Part shown: piece after piece, positions 40,687-41,605 of the stretch
Layout of the letters: the number at the start of each line of letters is the position of its first letter
Position numbering within the stretch: position 1 is the first letter of the stretch
Origin: Lachnospiraceae bacterium
Lineage (GTDB): Bacteria > Bacillota > Clostridia > Lachnospirales > Lachnospiraceae
Assembly (NCBI GenBank): GCA_017443065.1
Contig: JAFSPF010000089.1
Span: 1 to 41,605, forward strand
DNA: 41,605 bases
Direction: 5' to 3'
Position numbers and translations under genes: made by a program
The notes under the pieces: model-generated
Told to the model about the DNA's origin: nothing
The model's database searches: none
The model's input: the letters and a program-made list of their open reading frames with translations, nothing else

Positions 40687-40910
40687 TCCTGTTCACCTCG
40701 TAATGACAAAACCCGGCTTTTAATCAGATCATAGTTTATGTTCACGCCGCCAAAACTAAGTTCTTCGATGATCTCTAATACCCTGTCAATCACGTCATTT
40801 TCTTTTTCCAACAATTCCAAACAGGCTTCGAGAGTTTTTCGATAATCAATAAAGGCATAAAACCTGTCGTGTATTTCCCTTAATCCCTCTATGATTTCTG
40901 CTCTTGTCAT
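40683..40910 (-). CDS. 75-aa helical early protein (unknown function)
   Basis: The product (MTRAEIIEGLREIHDRFYAF, then LEACLELLEKENDVIDRVLE) is almost wholly helical and charged. AAAGGAGGAGC precedes the ATG. The leader of the gene is the 98-nt tRNA-like RNA, which ends about 19 nt before the start codon. Confidence 0.65.
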   Translation of the reverse strand: MTRAEIIEGLREIHDRFYAFIDYRKTLEACLELLEKENDVIDRVLEIIEELSFGGVNINYDLIKSRVLSLRGEQE

Positions 40911-40929
40911 TCCGCTCCTCCTTTTCGTT

Positions 40930-41027
40930 CGCGCGGGTAAGGATTTGCACCTTACATGACCAAACCTTATGCCGGTGTACTTATGGTCTTACCGGTTGTA
41001 AGCGTTTACCTATTCCGCCACCGCGCG
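40930..41027 (-). ncRNA. tRNA-like RNA with pseudoknot in place of the anticodon arm
   Basis: On the minus strand: acceptor-like stem CGCGCGG/CCGCGCG (41027-41021 with 40936-40930), TG, D-arm GCG/CGC with an 11-nt loop holding GG (41018-41002), and T-arm GTAAGG-TGCAAAT-CCTTAC (40955-40937). The D-arm resembles tRNA-Leu. Between D- and T-arms, CCGGT (40995-40991) pairs with ACCGG (40976-40972), and GACCA (40988-40984) pairs with TGGTC (40962-40958). These cross to form an H-type pseudoknot. No standard 7-nt anticodon loop can be drawn. It may be a degenerate phage tRNA, or a tRNA mimic that acts in cis on the next gene. Confidence 0.5.
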
Positions 41028-41049
41028 ATTTTTTAGTCTGTCCCCTCCA

Positions 41050-41289
41050 TCACCACTCACATGGAATCTCAAATAATACTTTGCTCTGCCTGATCTCCAC
41101 CTTGCCGATAGCGTCAAGGGTGTAATCGCCTTTGTTGTCGGCCTGTGCGATTGCCCCAATACCCTTACCATTCATCCACTTGCGCACAACCGCGCTGTCC
41201 GATAATGCAATAACATCGTCCTTGCGTTCGTCCACAATACCGCAGATAATCCACCCATACTCACACACGATACACACATGATTAGCCAT
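41050..41289 (-). CDS. 79-aa early protein (unknown function)
   Basis: The product (MANHVCIVCEYGWIICGIVD, then ERKDDVIALSDSAVVRKWMN) is a small beta barrel-like protein with Cys near the start. The second ATG (41289) lies 7 bp from AGGAGG, while the first (41295) is too close, so I use 41289. The ribosome-binding site lies inside the end of the upstream (Gly-X)n frame. Confidence 0.65.
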   Translation of the reverse strand: MANHVCIVCEYGWIICGIVDERKDDVIALSDSAVVRKWMNGKGIGAIAQADNKGDYTLDAIGKVEIRQSKVLFEIPCEW

Positions 41290-41291
41290 TT

Positions 41292-41605
41292 TCATCCCTC
41301 CTTAAAAATAAAAACTTTGCTTATATTGCCGTTGCCGTAGCCGTTGCCGTTGCCGTTGCCGTCGCCGTAGCCGTAGCCGTTGCCGTTGCCGAGGCCGTTG
41401 CCGTCGCCGTCGCCGTAGCCGTAGCCGTAGCCGAGGCCGTCGCCGTAGCCGTAGCCGTTGCCGTAGCCGAGGCCGTAGCCGTAGCCGTCGCCGTAGCCGT
41501 CGCCGTCGCCGTAGCCGTCGCCGTAGCCGTTGCCGTAGCCGTAGCCGTCGCCGTTGCCGTAGCCGTAGCCGTAGCCGTCGCCGTCGCCGTAGCCGTAGCC
41601 GTAGC
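41292..41605 (-). CDS. (Gly-X)n repeat protein, C-terminal part (cut by window edge)
   Basis: On the minus strand the repeat region is one open frame of 103 codons that enters from the right edge and ends with TGA at 41294-41292. It reads Gly alternating with Tyr, Asp, Asn or Leu, and closes with GNGNISKVFIFKEG. Every Gly codon is GGC and every X codon ends in C. The short normal tail and the overlap with the next gene's ribosome-binding site support coding. The missing N-terminus prevents a firm call. Low-complexity Gly/Tyr proteins can phase-separate or form fibres; function is unknown. Confidence 0.5.
   Translation of the reverse strand, partial: YGYGYGDGDGYGYGYGNGDGYGYGNGYGDGYGDGDGYGDGYGYGLGYGNGYGYGDGLGYGYGYGDGDGNGLGNGNGYGYGDGNGNGNGYGNGNISKVFIFKEG
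41328..41605. repeat. Hexanucleotide tandem repeat GCCGTN, 46 units to the window edge
   Basis: There are 46 uninterrupted hexamers on the + strand, of four types: GCCGTA (22), GCCGTC (11), GCCGTT (10) and GCCGAG (3). Only bases 5 and 6 vary. Unit length divides by three, so copy changes keep the frame. The array continues past the window. Confidence 0.95.

Follow-up and report, generated by a model that had tools for sequence, protein, structure and literature searches.

The tmRNA has tRNA-like ends without an anticodon arm and a pseudoknotted RNA in its middle; tRNA-Sec has an acceptor/T helix of 8 + 5 base pairs, and the non-proteinogenic tRNA-Gly of Staphylococcus has a UGC T-loop in a cloverleaf that includes an anticodon. 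The acceptor/T helix is the part of a tRNA that is read by RNase P and, in the case of MALAT1/mascRNA, a tRNA-like cleavage sets the end of an RNA.

For E. coli tRNA-Leu, passages of PMC9976931 list A15, U48, G18G19 and A20a as leucine identity elements, report that the molecule deprived of its anticodon and variable arms is still charged, and state that the discriminator A is needed for leucylation. Among structured phage RNAs, ROOL and GOLLD occur near tRNA islands and GOLLD rises during lysis (excerpts of PMC12286853); in addition, three highly transcribed and apparently non-coding regions, in places near tRNA genes, are described in Listeria phage CKA15 (in part of PMC12282133). An engineered analogue with an insert where the anticodon loop would be shields its RNA in E. 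coli (excerpt of PMC3753655).

The window, that is the whole stretch of 41,605 nt of Lachnospiraceae DNA that was analysed, begins at base 1 of its contig in an assembly of 144 contigs and carries a tRNA-like element with the following parts:

40930..41027, minus strand: whole tRNA-like element, 98 nt, based on sequence and family membership
41021..41027, minus strand: acceptor stem 5' strand CGCGCGG, 7/7 pairs with 40930-40936
41002..41018, minus strand: D-arm GCGGAATAGGTAAACGC of tRNA-Leu type, with A15, G18G19 and A20a (our own numbering)
40989..41001, minus strand: linker TTACAACCGGTAA, 13 nt, where the anticodon arm would be; contains CCGGT (40991-40995)
40984..40988, minus strand: variable-arm helix 5' strand GACCA; a helix in the same register is general in the family
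40972..40976, minus strand: ACCGG, possible crossing partner of CCGGT at 40991-40995, judged by shuffle tests and not proven
40958..40962, minus strand: variable-arm helix 3' strand TGGTC, then directly AT (U48)
40937..40955, minus strand: T-arm, 6-bp stem GTAAGG/CCTTAC and loop TGCAAAT (G55)
40930..40936, minus strand: acceptor stem 3' strand CCGCGCG, from the sequence
40929..40929, minus strand: discriminator A, then ACG, so that CCA is not encoded, from the sequence

The outer parts of a tRNA that the preliminary description had placed on the minus strand at 41027-40930, namely a 7-bp acceptor, TG between its 5' strand and the D-arm, a D-arm with GG and a T-arm, are confirmed by the sequence, as are the two 5-bp complementary pairs (CCGGT/ACCGG and GACCA/TGGTC) and the distance of 19 nt from the element to the ATG at 40910; the T-stem, in turn, had to be corrected to six pairs, one above a normal tRNA. 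The claim that no usable anticodon arm is formed is borne out by the 13-nt linker, in which TTA/TAA could at most form a weak closing stem around a 7-nt loop, and by ARAGORN, which returned 0 tRNAs in the window. Set against the features of a tRNA, the acceptor, D- and T-arms with G18G19 and the T-loop are present, and the anticodon arm with its 7-nt loop and the 12-bp acceptor/T helix are absent. The Rfam comparison that had been proposed gave no match in the window at gathering scores and none at E<=10 within 40850-41150. The minimum free energy fold of the element is not significant by itself (z -1.63); its tRNA body is far beyond chance because a body of this kind recurs in 198 matches.

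Among nine proteins scanned, those downstream on the same strand as the element include an ASCH/DUF3850 protein, a late-activator-like protein (weak matches), an HNH endonuclease and a small terminase subunit, and the surroundings are phage-like. A repetitive frame rich in Gly with Tyr/Asp/Asn/Leu (GYGYGDG...) runs off the end of the window at 41292-41605 on the minus strand, just upstream of the phage genes. The reading to which we incline, with slightly better than even confidence, is that the element is a free-standing phage RNA gene, descended from tRNA-Leu and withdrawn from translation, the variable arm of which works in trans.

In a blast of the window element against 50,697 phage records the matches fell chiefly on the D-arm and the T-arm, two short pieces whose spacing differs among Lactobacillus, Paenibacillus, Enterococcus and Leuconostoc phages. 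Among the matches listed, 19 of 20 rows had no annotated feature under the match and the feature column read 'none' in 53 of 60 rows of a second listing, family membership having been checked for part of these rows. The T-arm pattern occurred in at least 120 stretches of viral contigs and in 93 of genome contigs (80 listed of each). In the DNA examined, the T-arm motif gave 220 matches, 198 of which have a tRNA-Leu-type D-arm upstream (at most three mismatches), both counts taking in the window and its own-genome copy; the 22 matches without a D-arm include six within 70 nt of a contig edge, some D-arm variants and one CRISPR spacer. By eye, a spacer in a CRISPR array of Lactiplantibacillus plantarum EGD-AQ4 (L144:6700-6760) matches the T-arm, the 3' acceptor strand and the discriminator, and it is counted in favour of a phage RNA gene.

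After deduplication the set holds 181 elements and 175 cargos, as the stretches closed by the variable arm are called here, with 147 cargos left once similar ones were removed. Carriers known by name include SPP1, Listeria B054, vB_LmoS_188, LP-LmcIH1-8, Bacillus phage Grass, Leuconostoc Ln-9, Brochothrix BtpYZU02 and Enterococcus EG-TP1, together with Enterococcus Schiekviruses and Lactobacillus phages. Five of 80 titles listed belong to phyla other than Bacillota (all MAGs), one of them the Smithella locus L175, in which no D-arm is present, and a sixth reads Tenericutes. The T-arm pattern matched one of 61 genomes, the window's own; a strict combined pattern matched 0 of 398 phylum genomes and is too narrow to inform, since it missed even the window's own genome; another, narrow pattern likewise matched nothing. 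The Listeria phage P100 has many tRNA genes, and its parts at 15-40 kb and 90-131 kb, the two that were examined, gave no element; a single weak match there overlaps the annotated tRNA-Leu, and this absence counts against a phage RNA gene. The CKA15 transcription was considered as evidence of expression and set aside: no link to the element was made, and the P100 stretches contained none.

The element had been put forward as an undescribed RNA, and this assessment appears to hold: no Rfam 15 family covers it, most of the listed records are unannotated at its position, and no description was found in the open-access literature searched, most subscription journals and bioRxiv lying outside that search, so that an earlier description is possible. 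The element belongs to a large, apparently undescribed family of phage RNA-gene-like sequences, probably left unannotated because tRNA finders expect an anticodon arm.

A search seeded with the D-arm is the comparison with real tRNA-Leu that is least tied to the T-arm. From the first 120 matches that it listed, 91 new loci were analysed, the 29 loci already in the set through the T-arm motif or earlier retrieval being left out of the D-arm counts. A closed structure is present in 81 of the 92 D-arm matches in these 91 loci and absent from the other 11; ARAGORN calls overlap 23 of the 81, of which 21 were taken as tRNAs (20 tRNA-Leu and one tRNA-???) and two, L272 and L314, were kept among the 60 remaining rows. 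The T-loop reads TTC in 21/21 tRNAs; in the 60 other rows it reads TGC in 42, TTC in six and belongs to other or spurious arms in 12, so that the UGC loop is found in 42/60 of these rows against 0/21 tRNAs (Fisher 4.6e-9). This hallmark is not absolute, as a TTC loop is found in six rows without an ARAGORN call and the TGC-loop element of L314 is overlapped by an ARAGORN tRNA-Leu call; these cases, with the 11 D-arm matches lacking a closed structure, count against a phage RNA gene. In the D-arm matches of L265, L283, L297 and L313 the T-stem leads into GGTGAC... in place of GGTGCAAATCC, a pattern that looks like an insertion in the T-loop.

The sixth T-stem pair is formed in 41/41 distinct elements, chosen by their UG(C/U) T-loop, and in 1/19 distinct tRNAs, the fifth and fourth pairs being formed in 38 and 40 of the elements respectively. 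The acceptor register lies one base further out in all 41 elements (7/7 pairs in 37) and is normal in 19/19 tRNAs; consequently, the acceptor/T helix counts 13 bp in elements and 12 bp in tRNAs. The base before the T-stem is U in 43/43 D-seeded elements. An encoded CCA is present in 1/43 D-seeded and 1/180 T-seeded elements versus 10/21 tRNAs. Among the 181 T-seeded elements, accepted with up to three D-arm mismatches, A15 is kept in 180, G18 in 177, G19 in 178 and A20a in 180 (our own numbering). The acceptor is fully paired (7/7) in 146 of 180 distinct elements and there are 110 different acceptor 5' strands among the 181, with all four Watson-Crick types at positions 2-6; changes of D-stem pairs were counted across the family as well. 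ARAGORN made two calls on the 198 T-seeded elements, both of them tRNA-Lys inside the cargo (L054 and L170). The two independent seeds, T-arm and D-arm, give one architecture. The sequences show that the acceptor, D- and T-arms of tRNA-Leu have been kept and the anticodon arm lost, with a 13-bp helix, G55 and a CCA that is almost always missing.

The loss of the anticodon arm and of CCA is what a degenerate tRNA-Leu pseudogene would display; nevertheless, this origin is scarcely credible, since these departures are repeated across 198 matches in which the D-arm is conserved and the stems covary, and independent decay would not converge on them. The kept bases suggest another possibility, that LeuRS, which is anticodon-independent, charges the element as a leucyl donor outside translation, comparable to the non-proteinogenic tRNA-Gly of Staphylococcus. 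A15, U48, G18G19 and A20a coincide with the leucine identity elements of E. coli, activity persists in a tRNA-Leu without anticodon and variable arms (both from passages of PMC9976931), and the window element has the discriminator A. Across the family, however, this A73 is not kept, being found in 107/180 T-seeded and 22/43 D-seeded elements versus 21/21 tRNAs, so that selection seemingly acts on the fold more than on charging; moreover, a 13-bp acceptor/T helix would move the acceptor end relative to the elbow. A leucylated donor is, on balance, improbable.

The cargo is hypervariable (21-192 nt) and is closed by an enlarged variable arm, the 3' strand of which ends at the AT before the T-stem. 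The variable-arm helix scores at least 12 in 70% of 147 cargos versus 22% of shuffles; in the subclass with the flanks of the window, TTA-N5/7-TAAG, for which 44 of 49 matches had a closed structure and five were dropped, an arm of at least 4 bp occurs in 32/37 distinct cargos versus 6% of shuffles. The linker from the D-stem to the variable arm most often measures 10-11 nt (22 of 103 loci), and its length distribution has a long tail, which may derive partly from wrong choices of the arm. A vestigial anticodon stem in the linker is weakly favoured, at least three closing pairs being possible in 55% of 73 loci versus about 31% of shuffles. The in-register variable-arm helix and the short linker indicate that the anticodon arm was lost and the variable arm enlarged. 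The earlier picture of a pseudoknot replacing the anticodon arm is reframed accordingly: the arm is absent, as stated, but GACCA/TGGTC lies in the register of the variable arm.

Identical cargo is shared by elements that differ in their acceptors, L007 with L039 and L097 with L103, and a single acceptor can go with many cargos, as GTGCTTG does in 19 elements; the variable arm is a hypervariable, often structured domain, exchangeable between chassis. Most cargos are without a common fold and some measure only 21-29 nt, for which reason the cargo could equally be dispensable filler or a working domain. A second canonical T-arm-like stretch, GGTTCRANTCC, is seen in the cargos of L043, L050, L094 and L109 and, by eye, of L242, L252, L265, L278 and L300; a strict hairpin test for a second T-arm was positive in 3/147 cargos (L050, L109 and L159) versus 0.12 in shuffles. 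The cargos of L149, L215, L004 and L200 share GCCGGGT(A/T)AACA and GTGCCG(A/G)CTAAC-like motifs and may represent one larger folded domain; the cargos of the first three measure about 145-150 nt, and L200 is assigned to this group by its motifs.

In the window, the two crossing helices jointly score 27, a value reached by 20/5000 shuffles of the middle; when GACCA/TGGTC is kept as a fixed arm, 152/5000 shuffles match the crossing helix CCGGT/ACCGG (p about 0.03), and its pseudoknot is suggestive only. Among the elements and relatives searched, no cargo homologous to that of the window was found. A pseudoknot as a family-wide feature was examined and rejected. The joint test looked strong at first, with a score of at least 24 in 41% of 147 cargos versus 8-9% of shuffles and, at a score of at least 26, a 7.1-fold excess versus 2.6-fold for a non-crossing control; the conditional test shows that the variable arm drives this joint signal. 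With the arm held fixed (126 loci with an arm score of at least 10), a crossing score of at least 13 is found in 19% versus 12%, and p<=0.05 is reached by 4.8% of loci; in the unrestricted conditional test a crossing score of at least 13 is found in 44% versus 29%. In the TTA-N5/7-TAAG subclass, crossing helices are not enriched (score of at least 8 in 0.54 versus 0.62). On these grounds no pseudoknot is claimed for the window.

The situation is different in the sister subfamily A2, formed by seven related cargos (L056, L066, L172, L189, L199, L137 and L139). Here the crossing helix pairs in 7/7 and two of its pairs show four and five pair types; in the three-helix structure 99.2% of cells are paired. 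Double-changed cells number 24, compared with a shuffled mean of 8.4 (0/500 shuffles reach the value) and at most four in slid controls, a count biased towards the structure, as the helices had first been picked by eye in five of the seven cargos. Further pair types are unexceptional (18 vs 15.7, reached by 92/500 shuffles). As judged by this covariation, a pseudoknot in A2 is well supported, and the structure of the cargo is under selection there, since three helices, one of them crossing, are kept by compensatory change. A pseudoknot is thus supported by covariation in A2; the H-type pseudoknot of the preliminary description, in the copy in the window, is unproven (152/5000), and crossing helices are not general in the family.

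The surroundings of the element vary from locus to locus. The nearest ORFs are codirectional on both sides in 81 of the 101 loci, out of 147, in which both sides could be scored. In 24/147 loci a selected ORF covers more than 30 nt of the element (11 sense, 13 antisense); some mechanical ORFs thus run across the element, which is counted against a phage RNA gene, as is the one viral relative of the upstream gene (L322), in which no element lies in the 3.5 kb examined. A relative of the gene downstream in the window was searched for and none was found. An HNH protein is a neighbour in 17/147 loci, mostly downstream, and late activators lie upstream in 14 and 7 loci (one representative of each cluster identified). 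In phage records, the element is also found among tRNA genes, near tRNA or tmRNA genes and between head genes of SPP1; in that phage it lies between genes 9 and 11. The synteny with head and terminase genes also prompted the idea of a possible part in DNA packaging. Promoter-like sites upstream of the elements are not enriched (at least 10/12 in 0.02 vs 0.02; at least 9 in 0.14 vs 0.16).

That the element acts as a cis leader controlling the next gene is suggested by the 19 nt that separate it from a start codon in the window and by several loci in which a late-activator gene precedes it and HNH and terminase genes are close by. As a general role this earlier proposal is not supported, because a start codon that has a ribosome-site match and opens an ORF of at least 40 aa lies within 40 nt in 11/102 loci, the median distance being 289 nt, and because the neighbours are varied and include tRNA genes and the SPP1 head genes; a cis-acting leader is accordingly rated very unlikely.

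Stable RNAs occur among the neighbours. In the 88 loci scanned, Rfam tRNAs occur in 26, ROOL in three (L042, L018 and L202) and rliG in two (L222 and L085). In L042 the ROOL RNA (667-1248) ends 13 nt before the element, and the other two ROOL loci are at least 175 nt away; in L202, ROOL (152-683) is followed directly by a real tRNA. The successions ROOL-element in L042 and ROOL-tRNA in L202 suggest that element and tRNA can perhaps replace each other at the 3' end of ROOL, and the occurrence of ROOL and GOLLD near tRNA islands means that the element can share that niche. In PEf771 (L004) a tmRNA match ends on the first base of the element, with one base shared. The rliG RNA, not named in the consulted part of PMC3911899, is directly upstream in L222; in L085 it covers 41 bases of the element by coordinates, through a local end and not through aligned letters, and this overlap is therefore not evidence of expression. 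This Listeria-type locus also has an mcrA RNA motif (RF03010; L085:6217-6267), some 150 nt downstream of the element. No Rfam match at gathering scores (ROOL, GOLLD, tmRNA or others) is aligned over the element in the 88 loci scanned, a check that had no T-seeded row for L220, L222 and L226.

The rival that asks for the fewest assumptions is a pure processing signal, a kind of tRNA punctuation: RNase P and RNase Z would cut at the element and thereby define where neighbouring phage RNAs begin and end, the excised RNA being a by-product and the cargo filler. The position between codirectional genes, the stable RNA neighbours (ROOL at 13 nt in L042, the tmRNA end on the first base in PEf771) and the presence of the acceptor/T helix, the part read by RNase P, agree with it. 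On the other hand, punctuation does not need cargo helices kept by compensatory change, although these concern the single subfamily A2, nor does it need the G55 loop and the 13-bp helix, ordinary tRNAs being already good punctuation; furthermore, ROOL is found in only 3/88 loci, in two of which it lies at least 175 nt from the element. We consider this explanation possible but doubtful.

For the favoured phage RNA gene the following course can be envisaged. The element would be transcribed, excised from phage transcripts by host RNase P and RNase Z in a tRNA-like manner and provided with CCA after transcription; the tRNA body would keep the RNA stable, and the RNA would be excluded from use by the ribosome. 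Without an anticodon arm the element should not decode. The variable arm would be the working, trans-acting part, most likely a decoy or adapter for a factor of the host or of a competitor, with the elbow engaging tRNA-binding proteins; recruitment or titration of a tRNA-binding protein, already put forward, is possible. More specifically, and only tentatively, the family may be a class of phage RNA in which a tRNA-Leu chassis, locked out of translation by the 13-bp acceptor/T helix, the G55 T-loop and the loss of the anticodon arm, displays a fast-evolving and exchangeable domain that serves in conflicts of the phage with its host or with other phages, for instance by acting as a decoy for, or sensor of, defences that target tRNAs.

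Although SPP1 and other textbook phages carry it, as do many Bacillota genomes, this RNA-gene-like element had stayed unannotated. It looks like a natural tRNA chassis with a variable RNA cargo, bearing three sequence marks of a tRNA outside translation, and it opens a testable question, namely what phages do with tRNA mimics, for which SPP1 in B. subtilis makes the test direct.

In comparison with known systems, the closest relative is the phage-encoded, class II tRNA-Leu, which shares with the element T8, a D-arm with A15, G18G19 and A20a, U48, a long variable arm and a 7-bp acceptor. The element differs in having no anticodon arm, a sixth T-stem pair (hence the 13-bp acceptor/T helix) and G55, and in not keeping the discriminator A and the encoded CCA. 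As features of a LeuRS substrate, A15-U48, G18G19 and A20a are present, and the discriminator A73, an A in the window, is not kept family-wide. tmRNA (RF00023) has in common with the elements the tRNA-like ends, the missing anticodon arm and, in one subfamily, a pseudoknotted middle; in contrast, the elements have a full D-arm, a tag frame would hardly fit into cargos of 21-29 nt, no tmRNA match lies over the window element, the only one to touch an element in 88 loci shares a single base (L004), and ARAGORN with its tmRNA search gave no tmRNA match. The 13-bp acceptor/T helix recalls tRNA-Sec, from which the elements differ by the 7 + 6 split, the Leu-type D-arm and the absence of an anticodon arm.

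The Staphylococcus non-proteinogenic tRNA-Gly is likewise a tRNA relative outside translation, but it loses G18G19, which the elements keep (passages of PMC4052509). ROOL and GOLLD are structured phage RNAs often near tRNA islands (excerpts of PMC12286853); they are much larger, have no tRNA body, and neither model matches the element in the scanned loci. The bacterial Y RNA YrlA is a tRNA mimic raised for phage RNAs in part of PMC12282133, whereas the element has no Rfam match. The tRNA-Other of B. cereus is a pseudo-tRNA outside translation, with the difference that a Trp anticodon is present and that it flanks a chromosomal pathogenicity island (both from passages of PMC3399842). Finally, in the engineered tRNA scaffold the insert is placed in the anticodon stem-loop and the acceptor, D- and T-arms are kept (excerpt of PMC3753655); that construct is artificial and based on human tRNA-Lys3, while the natural insert sits in the variable arm. 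The element would be the natural counterpart of this scaffold, which shows that such a design can work in bacteria.
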